Source: an uncultured Scytonema sp.
GTDB taxonomy: Bacteria; Cyanobacteriota; Cyanobacteriia; Cyanobacteriales; Nostocaceae
Assembly: GCA_937873135.1 (NCBI GenBank)
Contig: CALMVQ010000003.1
Span: 1 to 64,000 of the forward strand
DNA: 64,000 nt
Reading direction: 5' to 3'
Positions within the stretch are counted from its first letter, which is position 1; every line of letters begins with the position of its first letter. Below the pieces are notes generated by a model. The model did not search any database, had not been told where the DNA came from, and saw only the letters and a program-made list of their open reading frames with translations. The position numbers and the translations under genes are program-made. Of this stretch, positions 22,099-40,717 are shown piece after piece.

Positions 22099-23406
22099 AT
22101 GGCTCTCCTTCCGATAACAGGTAAAGTTAATCGTCAGATTCGCACAATCGGCTTTACTATTGCTGGTTTTACTGCAACTCTGCTTGTGGGCGGGTTCTTA
22201 GTTCAAAGTGCTGATGCATACCGATATCGGACTTCTACAACTGGTGTTGTCTATACAGAAAGCAATACTCCAAGTGAAAATGAGAATACTGTTCTTGGCT
22301 TCCAGCGCGATGCCGATGGCAATCTAACACCGCTACCCACTTCCCCTTTCTCTACTGGGGGTGCGGGCATTACCAATGCAGGCGGGATAACCGTGCAAAA
22401 TGTGATCGCCAACTCCGAACATACCCGGCTTTTTGCTATCAATTCAGGATCGAACACGATCGCTGTCTTTGACATTAATCAAGAAGATGGCAGTCTTTCT
22501 CCAGTGGAGGGGTCTCCATTCCCGAGCGGCGGGGTGAACCCGGTCAGCTTGGGTTTGGCAAAGGATATACTCTATGTGGTTAATAGGAACAAAGACCCTA
22601 AGAATCCATCTCAAGACGCAAGCGGTTCCCTACCAAACTATACTGCCTTCCGCGTTACTCCAAAAGGCAGACTTATTCCCGTTCCCGGGTCTACCGTCTC
22701 AGGTCCCACAGATTCTAGGCCAACCCAAGCCCTGATATCTCAGGACAAACATCTGCTCTTCGGTGTGGACCGAGGGAGTGGCTTACTTCGATCTTTTCAA
22801 ATTCTCAGGGGAGGTCGCCTGCTGGAAAGCCCGAATTCGCCACAACCACTGCCTGCATCTGAATTCTCCCCAGGCACCCCACAGGCATCTGTACTGGGTT
22901 CAGGCAACCCACAAGCAACCGCGCTGGGACTCCAGGTGCATCCCAAACTGCCAATCTTGTATGTCGGCTTCTTTACCATCAATAAATTGGGAGTCTACTC
23001 TTTTGATCCACGAACAGGGAAGCTGACCTTCCTGAAAACTGTACCCAATTCAGGTCAGTTAGTCTGCTGGCTGACTACTAACCGGGCCGGAACCCGTCTC
23101 TACACAAGCAACCCTGGTGATAACAGTATTAGTGTTTACGATATTGCACAAGATCCGACCACACCAGTAGAGATTCAGAACGTGAAACTCCATGGCAGTG
23201 GTGGTAGTGCCGATCTCACTCTCGACCCAACAGAATCGTTTCTGCAAGCGGTCTCTCAGGGGAACTCGCCTAATATAGCCGAGGGTAATGGGCTAGATGT
23301 ACTCAAAGTCAACCCACAAGACGGTACTCTTAGCGAGGTATCTTCCTCACCCTTTCCACTCCCGTCAGTTAATGGTAGTGTTCCGCTAGGGATTGTTGCT
23401 AAGTAG
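22099..23406 (+). CDS. exported lactonase-fold (seven-bladed beta-propeller) protein
   Basis: 435 residues with an N-terminal membrane/signal segment (FTIAGFTATLLVGGFLV) ending near SADA. The rest shows 6-7 repeated blades with the pattern S/T-N-T-I-x-V-F-D plus D-G-x-L-x-P-x-x-x-S-P-F, as in the 6-phosphogluconolactonase-like (PF10282) family: FDINQEDGSLSPVEGSPF, FRVTPKGRLIPVPG, FDPRTGKLTFLKT, LKVNPQDGTLSEVSSSPF. Family members range from true lactonases to surface-exposed uncharacterised propellers; export argues against the cytosolic Pgl role. The DNA is visibly more GC-rich than its neighbours. Function unknown. Confidence 0.85.
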   Translation: MALLPITGKVNRQIRTIGFTIAGFTATLLVGGFLVQSADAYRYRTSTTGVVYTESNTPSENENTVLGFQRDADGNLTPLPTSPFSTGGAGITNAGGITVQNVIANSEHTRLFAINSGSNTIAVFDINQEDGSLSPVEGSPFPSGGVNPVSLGLAKDILYVVNRNKDPKNPSQDASGSLPNYTAFRVTPKGRLIPVPGSTVSGPTDSRPTQALISQDKHLLFGVDRGSGLLRSFQILRGGRLLESPNSPQPLPASEFSPGTPQASVLGSGNPQATALGLQVHPKLPILYVGFFTINKLGVYSFDPRTGKLTFLKTVPNSGQLVCWLTTNRAGTRLYTSNPGDNSISVYDIAQDPTTPVEIQNVKLHGSGGSADLTLDPTESFLQAVSQGNSPNIAEGNGLDVLKVNPQDGTLSEVSSSPFPLPSVNGSVPLGIVAK

Positions 23407-24225: not shown

Positions 24226-27045
24226 ATGATTAGTCAAGTTTCCGAAAAAAACATGCATTCGATCAGGTGGCTGCTTGCAGTCGGCTGGTTAATGTTAATA
24301 TTTTCATTATTATATGATCCAATTTCACCTTGGTTAACAGATCCTAGTCATCTCATCAGTCCTTTTCATCTTCATCCGGAGAAATACCTTGATCCCACAA
24401 ATTGCGTCAAAGTACAGGGAATATGTCTACCACAACGACCTTATGCTATGGGGGCACGCATCTTCTGGGCAATGATTGTGCCCATTAGTATCATAATTTT
24501 GCTGGTGTTTGGGCATGAATTTTGGCGGCGGATTTGTCCATTATATTTTTTCTCCCAAATACCGCGAGCATTAGGCATCCAACGCCAGCGTAAAATTGTG
24601 AACCCAAAGACGGGTAACATCCGTTACGAATTGGTAAGCGTTGAGAAAAAATCTTGGCTGGGACGTAATTACTTATACCTGCAATTTGGTTTGCTTTACT
24701 TGGGTTTCAATATCCGAATCCTGTTTGTGAATAGCGATCGCCTAACATTGGCTCTTTTCCTGTTATTAACGATCGCGTCCGCTATAACTGTGGGTTTCCT
24801 GTTTAAGGGGAGAAGCTGGTGTCAGTACTTTTGCCCAATGGCACCTGTACAAATATTGTACACAGGTCCACGAGGCTTACTCGGAAGTGATGCTCACCTG
24901 AAATCACCACAGAGCATCACCCAGTCTACCTGTAGGACAGTTGATAGTTCAGGCATTCAAAAGAGTGCTTGTGTGAGTTGTCAATCTCCTTGTATCGACA
25001 TTGATGCAGAGCGCTCTTACTGGGAGGGAATAACCAGACCAGACCAAAAGCTAGTTTTCTACGGTTACTTTGGTCTAATGTTAGGATTCTATTTCTACTA
25101 CTACTCGTACTCTGGCAACTGGGAATACTATTTCTCTGGTGCATGGACTCATGAAGCCGGGCAGTTACAGACACTCTTTAACCCTGGATTTTACATCTTT
25201 GCTCGCCCAATTCCCATCCCCAAGTTAGTTGCATCTCCGCTGACTTTAGCTGTTTTTACTGCGGCTAGCTATTTTAGTTTTGATTTACTAGAAAAAGCTT
25301 ATAAAGCTTATCTGCAACGCCAAAACAAATACATCAACTCAGAACAGGTTCTCCACGTTTTATTTGTCTCATGTACCTTTATATCTTTCAACGTCTTCTT
25401 TTTGTTTGGCGGTCGCCCCAATCTCAACTTACTACCAAACTGGGTGATCCTAATCTTCAATGCGTTGGTTGCACTCTTCAGTGGCACATGGCTATATCAC
25501 AGCCTAGAGCGGAGCAAAGAACGTTATTTCCGCGAAAGTTTAGTCAGTAGTTTGCGTCGGCAGTTAAACAAGCTAGCACTAGACTGGTCAAAGTTGTTGG
25601 AAGGACGTTCACTGCAAGACTTGCTACCAGATGAAGTGTACATTCTCGGAAAGGTACTGCCTAATTTTCACTTTTCAGATAGAGTAAGAGTTTATAAAGG
25701 AGTTTTGCTTGAGACCTTAGAAAAGGGCAATATCCGTTCTGCGGAAAGCTTGTCCGTTCTCAAAGATATGCGTCAGCAATTGAAAGTAACGGACTCAGAG
25801 CATGACTCTATTTTGAGGGAACTTGGGGTGGAAGATGCCAACCTGCTTGATCCACAAGTTCAACTCACCCGCGAAAACAAGTTGCGGCTTGATAGCTATC
25901 AACGTGCTATAGAGTTGCTGCTGTTGAAATCGCTAGAAAATGGTGTATCCCAGACAGAGATCCTCAATGTCAAGCAGAAGGAAATTTTGATATTGAGACA
26001 GGAATATGCCATAACCACAAATGAACATCAGCAGCTCTTAGCGGACATATTTCATCAAGACGGTTCAGTACACAAGACAGCCAAGAGCCTATTAACTCAG
26101 TTACATTCCTTGGCTGTCGGCGAGCAAATGCTGTACGACTTGAAGCCCTTTGAGCAAGCATCTGTTTATATTTTGCTGCAACGCGCTGTGCAGCAGAAGG
26201 AAAAACTCATAATTACTCAGTTACTGAGTATCCTCGAAACGTTGAGAAACTTTCCTGAGGCTTTCAAGATTGCAGGTTCAATCGCCTCTATTGCGCCAAA
26301 TGCGATCACACAAATTCTGCAAAAGGAGCACTCCAGATGGCGAGAGTGTTTAGATCCTAAAATCATCAGTTCATTACAACAAACACAAGATAAGCTCACT
26401 CAGCCTGTGCTATCATCAACACATCTTGGCTCTGTCACTACGACTCGTGAGGCAATAATCGAGCTTCTGCTCGGGCTCTTACAAGATAATGATCCCCTGA
26501 TACAAGCTGCCAGTCTTTATGGCCTGCATGACTTTAATCCTTTGATTGGCTTTCAGCAAGCGAGTCAAGTACTAGATGTTAAACCAAATAAAAATTGGCT
26601 CTTACATAAAACAGCTCAAAGAATTGTCGGTCATCTTCAGCATCACAATCAGCCTGTCTATGTACCGGCTCTGATTGCTCAAGTCAAAGCAATGAAATCT
26701 ACACAACGACTAGTTTTTCAGCAGCTCACAATTCGAGTCGGGCGAGGAGATGAGAACGATATCGTCATTTTGGATGACCGCATTCATCAACAGCACGCTA
26801 TCTTCTATTTGGATGACAAGGGAGTTATTGTTCAAGATTTAGGGAGCAATCAAGGTTTACGCATTGGTCGCGATTATATTCGCAATCAGTACAAGCAACT
26901 GAACCCAGTAGATATTGTTCGCTTTAGCAGTGAAGATGACTTACTCATTCTTGTGCAGTGGAAAATGCAACCCTTGCAAAAAGATAAAATCACGGGATCT
27001 TTAAGAACTTTAGAAGCTGATATCATACATGAACTTCTTACATAA
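24226..27045 (+). CDS. membrane 4Fe-4S (NapH/NosR-like) protein fused to C-terminal FHA domain
   Basis: 939 residues. The N-terminal part (~10-440) has ~8-9 hydrophobic helices with NapH/NosR/RdxA-like ferredoxin cysteines: RRICPLYF (Cys104), SWCQYFCPMAP (Cys199, Cys203), Cys236, and CVSCQSPCID (Cys249, 252, 256). The middle (~440-800) is soluble, helical and without a recognised family. The C-terminus (~825-900) is an FHA phosphopeptide-binding domain: TIRVGRGDENDIVI, RIHQQHAIFYL, VQDLGSNQGLRIG. Known NapH/NosR proteins pass electrons across the membrane to reductases. The FHA part suggests control by Ser/Thr phosphorylation. The ATG start is clean. No obvious redox partner is adjacent; the flavoprotein/ferredoxin operon lies 1.4 kb downstream on the same strand. 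Confidence 0.82.
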   Translation: MISQVSEKNMHSIRWLLAVGWLMLIFSLLYDPISPWLTDPSHLISPFHLHPEKYLDPTNCVKVQGICLPQRPYAMGARIFWAMIVPISIIILLVFGHEFWRRICPLYFFSQIPRALGIQRQRKIVNPKTGNIRYELVSVEKKSWLGRNYLYLQFGLLYLGFNIRILFVNSDRLTLALFLLLTIASAITVGFLFKGRSWCQYFCPMAPVQILYTGPRGLLGSDAHLKSPQSITQSTCRTVDSSGIQKSACVSCQSPCIDIDAERSYWEGITRPDQKLVFYGYFGLMLGFYFYYYSYSGNWEYYFSGAWTHEAGQLQTLFNPGFYIFARPIPIPKLVASPLTLAVFTAASYFSFDLLEKAYKAYLQRQNKYINSEQVLHVLFVSCTFISFNVFFLFGGRPNLNLLPNWVILIFNALVALFSGTWLYHSLERSKERYFRESLVSSLRRQLNKLALDWSKLLEGRSLQDLLPDEVYILGKVLPNFHFSDRVRVYKGVLLETLEKGNIRSAESLSVLKDMRQQLKVTDSEHDSILRELGVEDANLLDPQVQLTRENKLRLDSYQRAIELLLLKSLENGVSQTEILNVKQKEILILRQEYAITTNEHQQLLADIFHQDGSVHKTAKSLLTQLHSLAVGEQMLYDLKPFEQASVYILLQRAVQQKEKLIITQLLSILETLRNFPEAFKIAGSIASIAPNAITQILQKEHSRWRECLDPKIISSLQQTQDKLTQPVLSSTHLGSVTTTREAIIELLLGLLQDNDPLIQAASLYGLHDFNPLIGFQQASQVLDVKPNKNWLLHKTAQRIVGHLQHHNQPVYVPALIAQVKAMKSTQRLVFQQLTIRVGRGDENDIVILDDRIHQQHAIFYLDDKGVIVQDLGSNQGLRIGRDYIRNQYKQLNPVDIVRFSSEDDLLILVQWKMQPLQKDKITGSLRTLEADIIHELLT

Positions 27046-27329
27046 CTAAATTTTCAGGGTGGAACGGTAACATCGGATGCAGGATTAAGTTCAATATCCG
27101 TGAATGAAATTAATAACCAATAACAAGTTTACAAACTGAAAAATCTTAAAAGAAAGGGTTTTCTGTTAGGATCTACTGAAATAAAGTCGATAATTAATGA
27201 TTAATTGTCGATGAACATGTATAAATATTTATGAAATTTTTAACTAAAAAAGTAGTGTAAATTTTCACTATTTATTATGATAATACCATAATATGGAATG
27301 ACAATAGCTGACGAGAAAATCAGGTTTTG

Positions 27330-28196
27330 GTGTAAGAGGGTGTTTGAAAAGTTTTTATGGGTCAAATTTTCTGCTAATCGCCTCACCATAATACGGATCA
27401 TGGCAAGGTAGATAAAGGTTTCCGATGTTTCTGGCAATAACTCATAGTCTCTAACCAATAGCCGACAGCCCATCAGCTTTCTCGTAAGTGCGCTCGACCA
27501 CCCAACGTTTTTTGAGCAACACAAAGCCCTTAGTTTGTTCTGGGCGCAGAACCACCTGCACAATCCACCGGCAAAAGTTCATCACCCATTGCGATTTGAG
27601 GCTCATAATCATTGCCGCCATCTACCCAGATGGTTGTCAAGCGAGATACCTGGTCTTGAGACTGTTGGACCCATTTGAGAACTTGTTTACCCCCTTCACG
27701 CTCACCCACATTGGCTGCTGTAACCAAGACCCGCAAGACTAACCCCAAGGTATCGACCGTCGTAAATCGCTTGCGTACGAGTGATTTTCTTACCTGCATC
27801 AAAGCCCACGGATTGACTCACCATCGCGGCACTTTTCACGCAAAGTCTGCCTGCGAGAGTACTCTCGCAGGCAGACTTTGCGCCAGTTGCGAAAATATGT
27901 GTACACTAGCTTGCCTTGCGGGGAAAATCCCCAGGCAACGCTCGCCATCTAACGCCTTCTACCAAGATATAGAAGATGCCATTGAGGACTTCCCACATAT
28001 CGACTTCACGCTTGCGACCACCCGGTTTGGGTTCACCGAATCAGGTCACTGAGAAATTCATATTGTGCGCGGGTCAGGTTACTGGGGTAAGCTTTACTCA
28101 TGTCGCTTTCTCGGGGAAGTTTATTATCTATACGAGCCCGTAGACACCAGATAGCTTTTTTACAACATAGCCGACTTTTCAAACACCCTCTTACAC
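27330..28196 (-). mobile_element. IS5-family element, degraded
   Basis: Perfect ~23-bp inverted ends (GTGTAAGAGGGTGTTTGAAA and its complement) bound 867 bp. On the minus strand the transposase N-terminus MSKAYPSNLTRAQYEFLSDL starts at ~28100, followed by GGRKREVDMWE, VSQSVGFDAGKK, TVDTLGLVLRVLVTAANVGE and LPETSETFIYLAMIRIMVRRLA. These parts lie in several frames. The centre of the transposase gene (around the first catalytic Asp) is missing, and a 44-bp perfect palindrome sits in its place. Inactive. A second, shorter copy is at 33.1-33.7 kb. Confidence 0.85.
27839..27882. repeat. 44-bp perfect palindrome inside IS remnant
   Basis: Left arm CGCAAAGTCTGCCTGCGAGAG-T and its exact reverse complement meet with no spacer (centre between 27860 and 27861). 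It would extrude as a 22-bp cruciform. A second, smaller hairpin with GGGGAAAATCCCC core follows near 27919-27931. Confidence 0.9.
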
Positions 28197-28463
28197 ATAT
28201 AGTATCTAGCTGCTGTACATAGCAGTCATAAATATTCGTGAGCAACAAACAAGCCTGTAACCATTGAAAAAACCTACCTTTTGGCTCTAATTACTGATAG
28301 GAGTAATTATTTTGCAATACTTAATGTTTGATTAACTAACAATTAGAGTATTATAAGAAAAGAAATTTGCTGTACACATTCAGTAAAAAATTAGCCAATT
28401 TATCGTGGCAGCAGTCAACAGTGGCAAAGTATAAAGTTGACTGCCAAAAAGGAGGACAAAGAA

Positions 28464-30110
28464 TTGCTAACAGTCCGTAGCGAAAATGAACTACAATTAA
28501 CTGCTGACGTGCTGGTAATTGGTGGTGGTCCTGCCGCCGCATGGGCAGCATGGGCAGCCGCATCCCAAGGTGTCCTCGTCATCATTGTTGATAAAGGTTT
28601 TCTGGGTACGAGCGGTGCGGCTGCTGCCAGTGGCAATGGCATCATGGCTCCAACTCCTGAGAATTGGGACAAAGTTTTATGGGAGCGTTATCGCTTAGGA
28701 AAGAATCTAGCTAACTTACGCTGGATCGAGCGTGTTATCGAAAAAACTTGGCTCAGTTTGCCACTAGTGGAAGATTGGGGCTATCGTTTCCCCAAAGAAA
28801 ACGGGGAATCCGTGCGCCAGAGTTATTATGGTCCTGAATATATGCGGGTACTTCGCAAAATTCTCTTGCGTGTTGGTGTTCAGATTCTCGACCAAAGTCC
28901 TGCTCTAGAGCTTTTAGTGGCTGACGACGGCTCAGTGGCTGGAGCAAGAGGTGTGCAGCGGCAAAATCATCGTACCTATACCGTTCGCGCTGGTGCAGTA
29001 GTCCTGGCGAATGGCGGTTGTGCATTCTTGAGTAAAGCATTAGGTTGCAATACTAATACAGGTGATGGACTGCTGATGGCAGTGGAAGCTGGCGGCGAAC
29101 TCTCCAGTATGGAAGCTTCTAATCACTATGCCATCTCCACCGCTTTCAATGCCACAGTGACACGAGGTGTTCCCTTTGGCTGGGCTAGTTACACCTCGGA
29201 AGCAGGCGATGATCTTGGTGGCTATATCAATGGTCGTCGCGATCCATCCTTTCTCCCCAATGCCCTCCTGAAAGGGTCCGTTTATGCCCGTTTGGATCGC
29301 GCCACACCTGAAGTCAAGGCAGTGATTGAAAAGTCTCATTTCATCGCTTTTCTACCGTATAAAAAAGCTGGCATTGACCCCTACACAGAAAGAGTGCCTG
29401 TAACACTGATTTTAGAAGGTACAGTCCGTGGTACAGGTGGAATTCGGATTGTGAATGATAGTTGCGGTACAAAGGTTCCAGGACTCTACGCTGCTGGTGA
29501 TGCTGCATCGCGGGAGTTTTTATCCGGTTTAGCTTCTGGAGGTGGTGGTCCCAATGCCGCCTGGGCAATTTCCACAGGACAATGGGCAGGAGTTGGAGCA
29601 GCTGCCTTTGCTAAAAGTCTGGGCGCTCATGCCCATGAACGGGTTGTACGTCCTGCAGGTCAAGCCGGATTGCGATCTCCGGACTCCGCTTCCGAAACAT
29701 TCGATAGCGAGGCGATTGTGCGCGGTGTACAAGCACAGATGTTCCCGTTAAAGAAGAATTACTTGCGTTGTGAGCAGGGACTTCTGGATTCCCTCGCCGA
29801 ATTAGAAACGCTGTGGCAGCAGGTACAAGCGAACCCGAAACAAGATACAGTGCGCGATGTGGAATTTTCTCGTCGAGCGGCGGCTCTCACAGCTGTAGCG
29901 CGATGGGCATATTTTAGCGCTTTACATCGCACGGAAACGCGCTGCGAACATATTCGCGTGGACTATCCCCAAACCGATCCAAATCAGCGTTATTATCAAG
30001 CAACCGGCGGCTTAGAAAAGCTTTGGGTGAGGCGTGATTGGATCAGGGATGCTCCTGCTACACCACCAGTACTAACCACTCAAACCACATCCTCTACATC
30101 AAAGTTTTAG
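28464..30110 (+). CDS. FAD-dependent oxidoreductase, succinate/fumarate- or APS-reductase-like flavoprotein
   Basis: 548 residues from TTG 28464, which has a strong AAGGAGG eight bases upstream; the TTG at 28437 lacks one. The dinucleotide-binding motif VLVIGGGPAAAWAAWAA is at ~17-33, followed by DKGFLGTSGAAAASGNG and the flavoprotein signature GTVRGTGGIRIVNDSCGTKV...GLYAAGDAA. The C-terminal helical domain carries RTETRCEHIRVDYP, like the RxExRG.H..DYP motif of the SdhA/FrdA/AprA superfamily. The ferredoxin gene starts 10 bp downstream, so the two form an operon, and a paralogous pair exists at 38.7-40.7 kb next to ssuA. The substrate is unknown; sulfur-compound redox chemistry is inferred from context. 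Confidence 0.88.
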   Translation: MLTVRSENELQLTADVLVIGGGPAAAWAAWAAASQGVLVIIVDKGFLGTSGAAAASGNGIMAPTPENWDKVLWERYRLGKNLANLRWIERVIEKTWLSLPLVEDWGYRFPKENGESVRQSYYGPEYMRVLRKILLRVGVQILDQSPALELLVADDGSVAGARGVQRQNHRTYTVRAGAVVLANGGCAFLSKALGCNTNTGDGLLMAVEAGGELSSMEASNHYAISTAFNATVTRGVPFGWASYTSEAGDDLGGYINGRRDPSFLPNALLKGSVYARLDRATPEVKAVIEKSHFIAFLPYKKAGIDPYTERVPVTLILEGTVRGTGGIRIVNDSCGTKVPGLYAAGDAASREFLSGLASGGGGPNAAWAISTGQWAGVGAAAFAKSLGAHAHERVVRPAGQAGLRSPDSASETFDSEAIVRGVQAQMFPLKKNYLRCEQGLLDSLAELETLWQQVQANPKQDTVRDVEFSRRAAALTAVARWAYFSALHRTETRCEHIRVDYPQTDPNQRYYQATGGLEKLWVRRDWIRDAPATPPVLTTQTTSSTSKF

Positions 30111-30120
30111 CAGGAGTATC

Positions 30121-30516
30121 ATGATCGAGCTTGTCAGCCATCAACTCTGTATCAATTGCAATGTGTGCGTCCAAGTTTGTCCTACCAATGTCTTTGAGTC
30201 CGTACCCAACCAACCACCCGTGATTGCCCGAAAGGAAGACTGTCAAACTTGTTTCATGTGTGAGGCATATTGTCCGGCAGATGCCCTCTATGTTGCGCCC
30301 CAATCTCATACCAATGTTGCAGTTAATGAGGATGATTTAATTGAACGTGGCATCATGGGTGAATATCGTCGCCTCTTGGGTTGGGGATATGGCAGAAAAA
30401 ACAATAGTGAGTTGGATACTGCTCATAAGCGGCGCCAACTGCCACGCCCCGATCAAGTTTCTCCAATCAACAACTACAAACACCTCCATGACGTTACCAA
30501 CCACCAATCTCGGTAA
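30121..30516 (+). CDS. ferredoxin-type protein with two [4Fe-4S] clusters, partner of the flavoprotein
   Basis: 131 residues. Two cluster motifs: Cys10-x2-Cys13-x2-Cys16-x3-Cys20-Pro, and Cys41-x2-Cys44-x2-Cys47-x3-Cys51-Pro. The tail after residue ~90 is basic and unlike the 109-residue paralogue at 38.7 kb, although residues 1-85 align closely, including PTNVFESV, DCQTCFMCE and DALYVAPQ. It starts 10 bp after the flavoprotein stop and overlaps the aldo-keto reductase start by 29 bp, indicating translational coupling. It is likely the electron-transfer subunit of the flavoprotein, analogous in layout to AprB or FrdB but not homologous along its length. Confidence 0.92.
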   Translation: MIELVSHQLCINCNVCVQVCPTNVFESVPNQPPVIARKEDCQTCFMCEAYCPADALYVAPQSHTNVAVNEDDLIERGIMGEYRRLLGWGYGRKNNSELDTAHKRRQLPRPDQVSPINNYKHLHDVTNHQSR

Positions 30517-39079: not shown

Positions 39080-40717
39080 CTATTTACTAACCATTAACAA
39101 CTCTTGAGTCTCTAGTTTTTTAGGTTCTGGTTTTACCCAGACTTGATCTAAACCTCCACTAATCAGGTGATGCTGCTGGTTCGCATCCAATTGTGGATGG
39201 TCTTCGTGCTTGTGCATACCGCGAGTTTCTTTGCGTTCTAAAGCGCTGCTGTACATCCATCGCGCTGTTGCTACCATTGCTGCTGCTTCCCGCGTCCGGA
39301 CGATATTTTGATCGTTTGCAGATTGGCTATTACGAATTTCTTGCCAAAGTTGATTTAACCTCTGCAAAGATTCTGTCAAATTTTTCTCGTTGCGGAAATA
39401 GTTGCGATCGTAGGGGAAGACTTCGTCTTGGGTTGCTTGGATGATTTGATCGGGGTTTAGGGTGCGATCACTGCCAGAATAGAATGCAGCTTCGCCTATT
39501 GCTTCTGTTGGGCGTTGTGTTGCTTTATCTCCCAACTTATGGGCGTAAACGGTAGCAGATTGTCCAGCCCAATAACCTGAAGATATCGCCCAAGCAGCAT
39601 TATGACTACCGCCGCCTGTGAACCCACCGCAGATTAATTCTCTTGTTGCTGCATCTCCGGCGGCATACAATCCTTTTACAGAGGTAGCGCAGGTATCATC
39701 CACAATTCTAATTCCACCTGTACCACGCACTGTTCCTTCGAGGCGGAGGGTGACGGGGAAGCGCTGGGTAAAGGGATCAATGCCTGCCCGATCTAAGGGT
39801 AGGAAGAAGTTGGGCTGTGCCTTACGCATGGCTGAGCGCATTTCTTCTGTTGCTTGATCGATAATGGCGTAAACTGGTTGATTCAACAAGGTTTTGGCAA
39901 TCACCGAACGTCCCCCGTGTGAACCTGCGCCCGGAATTGGGGTGTTGTCTTCGTAGGTAAAAGTTGCCCAGCTGTAAAATAGGGTTTTGGTGACGGAAGA
40001 AAAGGCGGGACAGATGCCGTAAGCGTTGGAAAATTCCATTCCCGACATTTCGGCACCTGCTTCAGCCGCCATTAAGTAACCGTCCCCAGTTAAAACGTTG
40101 CATCCTAGTGCTTTACTTAAGAAAGCACAGCCGCCAGTGGCAATGATCGCCGCACCTGATTGCACAATCCATTTTTTACCCGTTTGACGGTTAATTCCTG
40201 TTGCACCTGCAACTGCACCATCAGATACCAACAGTTGCAAAGCTGGACTGTTGTCTAAGATTGTGACGCCTGCCCGTTTGATTTGCTTGCGCATCAGTCG
40301 CATATATTCTGGTCCTTGGAGACTACGCCGATAGGGTTTACCCGATTCGTCGGTGGGAAAGGGATAACCCCAGTCTCCTAACAGATTGACGTTCGCATAA
40401 GTTTGATCCAGTACCCGCTGCATCCAATCGCGGTTTGATAAAAATCCACCCAATGTTTCGCGACTTGCCATTGCTGCATCTCGAGCATCAGCATCAGGCG
40501 GTACGTACCAAACGCCGTTGCCAGATGCCGCCGCGCAGCCTGTGGTACCACAGTAACCTTTATCTACGAGGACAACTCTAGCACCACTCGATGCAGCACT
40601 CCAAGCTGCCCAAGTACCAGCCGGACCACCTCCAATTATCAGCACATCTGCCTGCAAGTTAGGATAAATATCAGTGGTAGATGACTCTTCTGACCAAAAC
40701 TGATTCATACTGCTCAA
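39080..40717 (-). CDS. FAD-dependent oxidoreductase (paralogue of 28464), ssuA-linked
   Basis: 545 residues. ADVLIIGGGPAGTWAAWSAA (~23-42), DKGYCGTTGCAAASGNG, and the signature GTVRGTGGIRIVDDTCATSVKGLYAAGDAA match the SdhA/FrdA/AprA superfamily. The capping region contains KALGCNVLTGDGYLMAAEAGAEMSGMEFSN, also present in the 28.5-kb paralogue, and the C-terminal helical domain has KETRGMHKHEDHP. Followed by ferredoxin and SsuA genes. An ACCGTATTTAAT element lies 120 bp upstream. Linkage to a sulfonate-binding protein suggests organosulfur redox chemistry, but the substrate cannot be named. Confidence 0.9.
   Translation of the reverse strand: MSSMNQFWSEESSTTDIYPNLQADVLIIGGGPAGTWAAWSAASSGARVVLVDKGYCGTTGCAAASGNGVWYVPPDADARDAAMASRETLGGFLSNRDWMQRVLDQTYANVNLLGDWGYPFPTDESGKPYRRSLQGPEYMRLMRKQIKRAGVTILDNSPALQLLVSDGAVAGATGINRQTGKKWIVQSGAAIIATGGCAFLSKALGCNVLTGDGYLMAAEAGAEMSGMEFSNAYGICPAFSSVTKTLFYSWATFTYEDNTPIPGAGSHGGRSVIAKTLLNQPVYAIIDQATEEMRSAMRKAQPNFFLPLDRAGIDPFTQRFPVTLRLEGTVRGTGGIRIVDDTCATSVKGLYAAGDAATRELICGGFTGGGSHNAAWAISSGYWAGQSATVYAHKLGDKATQRPTEAIGEAAFYSGSDRTLNPDQIIQATQDEVFPYDRNYFRNEKNLTESLQRLNQLWQEIRNSQSANDQNIVRTREAAAMVATARWMYSSALERKETRGMHKHEDHPQLDANQQHHLISGGLDQVWVKPEPKKLETQELLMVSK

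Follow-up and report, generated by a model that had tools for sequence, protein, structure and literature searches.

The 64,000-nucleotide stretch analysed here (the window; positions 1 to 64,000 of the forward strand of contig CALMVQ010000003.1, assembly GCA_937873135.1, from an uncultured Scytonema sp.) carries at 24226–27045, on the plus strand, a gene whose 939-residue product, P0001, joins a membrane core resembling NapH and NosR to a C-terminal FHA domain. The locus raises the question of what a phosphopeptide-binding fold is doing on a redox-type membrane protein, and whether, as the original prediction proposed from the letters of the window, the protein is read out by Ser/Thr phosphorylation. 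Our preferred reading, to which we assign a probability of roughly 0.6, is that P0001 is a short, orphan paralogue of a module that would carry electrons from NAD(P)H to the membrane, and that it is ungated, retains its FHA domain as a scaffold, and is still under selection.

P0001 is encoded by a single uninterrupted frame from ATG to stop. The same architecture occurs on three separate contigs of the source genome (C3, C362, and C132, with 85 per cent identity), and a second genome (G002) has one intact copy that is 97 per cent identical to P0001. Because of this recurrence P0001 is not an assembly artifact, and an assembly fusion of two genes, one of the two circumstances named with the original prediction as refuting it, is ruled out. 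The best named match to P0001, also with 97 per cent identity, is from Rhizonema sp. NSF051; Rhizonema is a lichen cyanobiont.

Comparison with Pfam and structure prediction agree on the layout of the protein. A Fer4_5 match lies at residues 178–209 (26.7 bits; cut-off 22) and an FHA match at residues 836–900 (37.5 bits; cut-off 20.7), where the overlapping Yop-YscD_cpl model is also above its cut-off. Residues 210–831 have no Pfam match above cut-off, with just weak ENT, DUF7047, and HEAT similarities, consistent with the earlier statement that the middle region belongs to no recognised family. The AlphaFold2 model, calculated with a 58-row family alignment, has a mean pLDDT of 78.6 and a pTM of 0.58. 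In this model, residues 431–805 are mostly helical, as had been predicted for the middle of the protein, with a low-confidence gap at 724–738. This part comprises a helical region shared within the family (residues 431–735; 25516–26430, plus strand, as are all features of the gene given below) and a second helical segment with weak, below-cut-off HEAT-repeat similarity (residues 736–810; 26431–26655). The ten-residue blocks over 811–910 have pLDDT values of 86–92, and VIA-align superposes residues ~812–916 (the FHA fold, residues 812–916, is at 26659–26973) on FHA domains with Z-scores of up to 15.3 (rmsd of 1.7 over 98 residues). Hence, the FHA fold withstood both structure prediction and structural alignment, and the Fer4_5 match and the model likewise bear out the membrane Fe-S part. 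Foldseek with a 540-residue model of the core and the first helical part returned no credible match (best E-value of 0.37), a result that excludes no family, and in a profile search of the PDB the best 60 of 192 matches align only to the stretch of the profile that covers FHA and cNMP.

To place P0001 among its relatives, we took the best 80 loci of 386 relatives, and therefore the counts below lean to close relatives. These loci supplied 76 references (L037, L088, L056, and L102 were left out), from which two alignments were built: A2 (58 rows; 56 of the references plus the window protein and L037) and A3 (77 rows; 73 of the references plus the window protein, L037, L056, and L102).

The membrane core (residues 1–430; 24226–25515) is, judged by its sequence, a variant of the NapH-like kind. 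As in NapH, NosR, and RdhC (PceC), there is a match to Fer4_5 (PF12801), a CX3CP motif, and Fe-S-type cysteines predicted to be cytosolic. Topology was derived from the model helices, hydropathy, and the number of Lys and Arg residues per loop. Eight membrane helices were assigned, of which the fifth (272–296) is weakly hydrophobic, and both termini are predicted to be cytosolic by the positive-inside rule. The loops with Cys104, 199, 203, 236, 249, 252, and 256 are predicted to face the cytosol, and Cys60 and Cys67 (24403–24426) are predicted to lie in an extracytoplasmic loop. The predicted-cytosolic cysteines comprise Cys104-Pro105, half of a first CX3CP in which Trp100 occupies the first-Cys position (WRRICP; 24535–24540) and whose one-Cys form is invariant in all 77 rows of A3; a complete CX3CP motif, Cys199-x3-Cys203-Pro204 (24820–24837); and a ferredoxin-type four-Cys set, Cys236 followed by Cys249-x2-Cys252-x3-Cys256 (24931–24993). 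All seven are kept in each of the eight proteins compared, three of them alphaproteobacterial, and Cys249 is missing in one row of A2. Several features separate P0001 from the NapH-like proteins as these are described in PMC5928378: one complete CX3CP motif instead of two, with the other retaining one Cys; one Cys set (236, 249, 252, and 256) instead of the two C-terminal 4Fe-4S motifs of NapH and NosR; and eight assigned helices instead of four to six in NapH, NosR, and RdhC. Unlike NosR and RdhC, which have a covalent-FMN domain, P0001 has no FMN-binding profile among its six Pfam matches at E-values up to 1, and unlike all three its family carries C-terminal FHA and cNMP extensions.

Sequence comparison gives the plan of this family as an Fe-S membrane core and a helical region, followed by an optional FHA and an optional cNMP-type domain. 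Among 95 non-redundant family frames (107 minus duplicate copies, with two of the 95 being halves of one interrupted gene, L088), 36 have FHA and cNMP, 39 have cNMP but no FHA, 16 lack both (several being truncated or fragments), and four have FHA without cNMP. All four of the last class are the Rhizonema short forms. The source genome also encodes a long paralogue (L004/L119; 1107 amino acids) with the same layout as P0001 and, past the FHA domain, the cNMP_binding domain that P0001 and the other short forms lack. More generally, the long cyanobacterial relatives share the core and helical region of P0001 (44–68 per cent identity in full-core matches), but most have a C-terminal cNMP-type domain and many have an adjacent FAD/NAD/[2Fe-2S] reductase gene, and P0001 has neither. 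Two plasmid records annotate such long relatives as 'cyclic nucleotide-binding domain-containing protein'. A 67-row tree (the 58 of A2 and nine hand-picked) unites the short forms with a truncated Tolypothrix copy in one clade (support 100/100) nested in the Nostocales clade of FHA+cNMP proteins. P0001 is therefore a derived short form, not an ancestral design. At an E-value of 1e-60 or better, the family is found in 25 of 194 genomes of an even draw of the phylum, source genome included.

The neighbours of the long forms suggest what the module might do. Clustering of flanking frames revealed one homologous gene near 31 of the 80 loci, always on the same strand as the family gene (31/31), and Pfam scans of two members gave FHA, FAD_binding_6, NAD_binding_1, and Fer2 domains. 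Among loci that have 1.8 kb or more of sequence on the downstream side, this partner reductase lies downstream at 26 of 31 FHA+cNMP loci (within 600 bp in 24 of the 26) and at one of 29 cNMP-only loci (Fisher P-value = 6e-11, uncorrected for relatedness). It is missing from the remaining five of the 31 (L047, L066, L067, L069, and L070). The family protein of genome G015 matches that of L047 exactly over its C-terminal 400 residues, and the partner reductase of G015 lies 7.5 kb away on the other strand. At L059, an FHA+cNMP locus outside the 31 whose downstream side is cut off, a partner homologue lies 1.4 kb upstream. Across genomes, the partner reductase is present in 13 of 21 family-positive and, as a partial match, in one of 39 family-negative genomes (Fisher P-value = 5e-7); in 12 of these 13 its coordinates place it next to the family gene and in the same direction. 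Here, 'family-positive' denotes 21 of 60 genomes, hand-picked at E-values below about 1e-150; an automatic tally of 52 of 60 also takes in an AAA-type family and small fragments. The cNMP form of Synechocystis PCC 6714 has no partner reductase beside it. In the source genome, the reductase occurs once at an E-value of 1e-60 or better (contig C91), and because this copy adjoins the long paralogue, no short gene has a reductase of its own.

Further downstream, on the same strand, 15 of the 31 FHA+cNMP loci have a protein of a CHASE2 cluster. The kinase HRD motif is present in 11 of the 15, and the other four are cut short by the end of their sequence; two members are CHASE2-Pkinase by Pfam, the L050 homologue among those confirmed. 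The cluster was formed by single linkage and also takes in CHASE2-SpoIIE and SpoIIE proteins at other loci. In the source genome, a frame read as the same CHASE2 Ser/Thr kinase lies beside the long paralogue.

We propose that, in the long form, the neighbouring soluble FAD/NAD(P)H/[2Fe-2S] reductase, often FHA-tagged, would take electrons from NAD(P)H and pass them to one or more cytosolic Cys-ligated Fe-S centres of the membrane protein, which in turn would reduce an acceptor in the membrane, with plastoquinone as the simplest candidate. Gating or docking of the pair of reductase and membrane protein would fall to the FHA domains and to the Ser/Thr kinase encoded nearby. In the Rhizonema short forms, in which the cNMP domain is lost, the FHA pocket altered, and the partner gene not adjacent, an ungated redox module would remain, with the FHA domain surviving as a structural or non-phospho docking scaffold.

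The electrons could also run the other way or to another acceptor, from quinol to a cytosolic oxidase or oxygenase, or across the membrane to Cys60 and Cys67. Characterised NapH-like proteins are put at a quinol-oxidising step in PMC5928378 and PMC8238504, Cys60 and Cys67 are invariant in all 77 rows of A3, and a putative Rieske-type oxygenase frame lies near the third short paralogue. However, the long form usually adjoins a gene for an NAD(P)H-type reductase, a natural donor; Cys60 and Cys67 are absent from the three alphaproteobacterial relatives aligned, including those of Rhizobium etli and Agrobacterium fabrum, which keep the reductase pair; and comparison of the surroundings of the three short copies showed no DNA similarity except for a lactonase-like gene common to two loci. 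We regard this alternative as less likely than the flow proposed above.

The FHA domain itself bears on the question of gating. Canonical FHA domains contact phosphate through an Arg, the Ser of an SxxH motif, and the Asn of an NG motif. P0001 shares its fold with the FHA phosphopeptide binders GarA, OdhI, MDC1, and Slr1951 (Z-scores of 14.8–15.3), but two of the three canonical residues are replaced: Arg840 (26743–26745) is the sole one kept, His854 (26785–26787) replaces the Ser, and Gln876 (26851–26853) replaces the Asn. Both Ser and Asn are gone in all four distinct short forms (R/H/Q in three and R/D/K in one). All three pocket residues are present in 25 of 40 FHA-bearing cyanobacterial frames, the remaining 11 have pockets altered in other ways, and the His of SxxH (His857 in P0001) is kept in 40/40. 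The proposal that P0001 is read out by Ser/Thr phosphorylation is not upheld by these substitutions. Phosphorylation readout plausibly fits the long relatives better than P0001, given the intact pocket of many of them, the FHA-tagged reductase downstream, and, at some loci, the CHASE2 kinase. It is nonetheless conceivable, if improbable, that P0001 does respond to phosphorylation, its FHA domain binding a phosphothreonine peptide of its own or of a partner despite the changed pocket: the fold is clean, Arg840 is kept, the domain is under purifying selection, and the putative kinase frame lies beside the long paralogue of the same genome. The uniform loss of Ser and Asn in the short forms argues against this alternative, as does the genomic context: none of the short genes adjoins the FHA-bearing reductase, and the surroundings of the second and third paralogues showed no kinase frame.

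Nei–Gojobori estimates for the three short paralogues gave dN/dS values of 0.13–0.15 for the core (dS of 0.27–0.33) and 0.17–0.31 for the FHA domain. Because these values are low, the three paralogues are not free to decay. In long forms, dN/dS of the FHA domain is 0.03–0.05 in two close pairs (with only one or two amino-acid changes) and 0.14 in a distant pair, and these numbers fit a relaxed constraint on the short-form FHA domain relative to the long forms. The domain is thus maintained, but probably not as an ordinary phosphothreonine reader. The competing view that the short forms are degenerating duplicates, spread by transposition and without present function, finds its material in the dispersal of three single-gene copies, in frames read as transposases or their remnants close to P0001 and to the second paralogue (L117), in a Tolypothrix copy that stops beside a putative IS630-type transposase, and in a further family fragment with stops on contig C263 of the source genome. 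Three full-length open frames at such a core dS, with the selection just described, and the intact copy in G002 make it an unlikely account.

A second ligand pocket has to be considered in the long forms. The phosphate cassette of cNMP-binding domains carries the signature R[ST]A. Among the 36 FHA+cNMP proteins, 25 have an intact FHA pocket without R[ST]A, nine combine R[ST]A with an altered FHA pocket, two have neither, and none has both. This exclusion is suggestive only, because it reflects few evolutionary events, mostly two clades in the tree. R[ST]A is kept in just two of 39 cNMP-only frames, and therefore many cNMP-type domains of the family may not bind cyclic nucleotides. A broader proposal, which we advance tentatively, is that the long form and its reductase would be a new, switchable entry of NAD(P)H electrons into the membrane redox pool of cyanobacteria and rhizobia, with each lineage keeping at most one ligand pocket, and that the Rhizonema short forms, which have neither pocket, would be natural ungated versions favoured by selection in a lichen symbiont.

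Relatives in other lineages help to delimit the module. On plasmids of R. etli 8C-3 and A. fabrum lies a gene for an 'FHA domain-containing protein' with 34–35 per cent identity to P0001 over residues 1–862 and 1–858, respectively; the gene directly after it, annotated 'hybrid-cluster NAD(P)-dependent oxidoreductase', encodes FAD, NAD, and Fer2 domains and has no FHA match. The FHA domain of the membrane protein keeps the Arg, has Trp for Ser, and lacks the Asn; the C-terminal part of the protein aligns to the cNMP region without a Pfam cNMP match. Leptolyngbya boryana encodes, in succession and with gaps of 2 and 18 bp, a WD40 Ser/Thr kinase, a core protein with no FHA or cNMP match, and an FHA-FAD-NAD-Fer2 protein. 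Wherever the partner is present, it is thus the pair of membrane protein and reductase that is constant, and the FHA and cNMP domains that vary. The alphaproteobacterial modules (L123:4872-8805 in R. etli and L124:3966-7790 in A. fabrum) have divergent flanking genes annotated as a response regulator, an ATP-binding protein, and a cytochrome c peroxidase, which Pfam assigns to the di-haem type in R. etli.

If correct, our reading of the family would describe a module in which the entry of electrons at a membrane Fe-S protein is coupled to Ser/Thr phosphorylation through FHA domains and possibly also to cyclic nucleotides, and which spans two phyla together with a neighbouring dedicated reductase. 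Neither the FHA/cNMP-tailed architecture nor its operon is named in the open-licence PMC titles among the matches listed; subscription journals lay outside that search. L. boryana offers a cultured, genetically tractable strain in which kinase, core, and FHA-reductase are tightly packed, and the Rhizonema copies would be natural controls without the pocket.

Several observations weigh against reading P0001 as an ungated member of such a module. The linkage counts are not independent of phylogeny; eight of the 21 family-positive genomes are without the partner reductase; the reductase is not beside the short forms; and in Rhizobium leguminosarum the core occurs by itself, without a reductase of this kind next to it. 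Most of the four-Cys loop has a pLDDT below 50, and the loss of one Cys from the first CX3CP bears on the number of clusters that might be bound. The helical region of the three paralogues evolves faster (dN/dS of 0.34–0.37) than the FHA domain. FHA domains whose pockets have changed may retain phosphopeptide binding or acquire other ligands, and Arg840 is kept. Finally, the cNMP-cassette Arg is absent in 25 of 25 long forms with an intact FHA pocket, so that losing the cNMP domain may have cost little regulation.

Two other groups of sequences touch on the family. Proteins of about 840–875 amino acids that combine cNMP, AAA, and Fer4_5 parts (L007 and L029–L036) occur in many of the 60 genomes, and C279:3658-4116 of the source genome belongs with them. 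Their Fer4_5 core is 27–32 per cent identical to P0001 over about residues 71–240, but cNMP and AAA lie N-terminal to the Fe-S part: the two scanned show Fer4_5 helices behind an N-terminal cNMP domain and an AAA domain of the sigma-54-activator type, with no FHA match. Nine such proteins lack the GAFTGA motif, and the Walker A stretch reads GEPGLEKD in seven of the nine and GEPGLGKD in L031 and L032. Because GAFTGA is absent and Walker A altered in seven, the AAA part is unlikely to act as a sigma-54 activator. The other case is L102, one row of A3, with 57 per cent identity over residues 1–555, from a metagenome-assembled genome labelled Candidatus Gracilibacteria; it is likely a contaminating cyanobacterial contig.

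As for its immediate surroundings, P0001 does stand alone, as originally described: the next same-strand genes (28437–30516) lie past minus-strand frames at about 27240–28100 that are read as transposase remnants. A tie to these genes, a flavoprotein/ferredoxin operon, had been hinted at, but no similar DNA was found at the other two paralogues (10.7 kb and 7 kb downstream compared). A partnership with the operon is not supported on this ground and because the usual neighbour of the family is a different reductase. The DNA common to the three short paralogues is the gene and 28–67 bp upstream only; the contig of the second paralogue holds just 503 bp upstream. The lactonase-like beta-propeller gene at 22099–23406 of the window, which has a homologue near the third paralogue (L118:12868-14202), is one of five copies with at least 53 per cent identity in the source genome.

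The third paralogue also lies near a frame read as thioesterase-like. The truncated Tolypothrix copy (L121:7165-8793), for which the remainder of the gene was not found in the stretch compared, adjoins two frames read as type I PKS and, at its end, the transposase frame mentioned above. Such frames might hint at a role in a biosynthetic cluster, but no PKS-, thioesterase-, or Rieske-like genes were seen next to P0001 or in the 10.7 kb that follow the second paralogue downstream. The window itself contains two fumarate-reductase-like flavoproteins, one at 28437–30516 (by Pfam/NCBIfam) and one at 39080–40717 (by reading), of which one has a dicluster ferredoxin behind it. They lie amid frames read as sulfonate-type transport (sulfonate-binding) proteins, a sulfatase, and TauD-like dioxygenases, and this part of the window looks like a region for organosulfur use.

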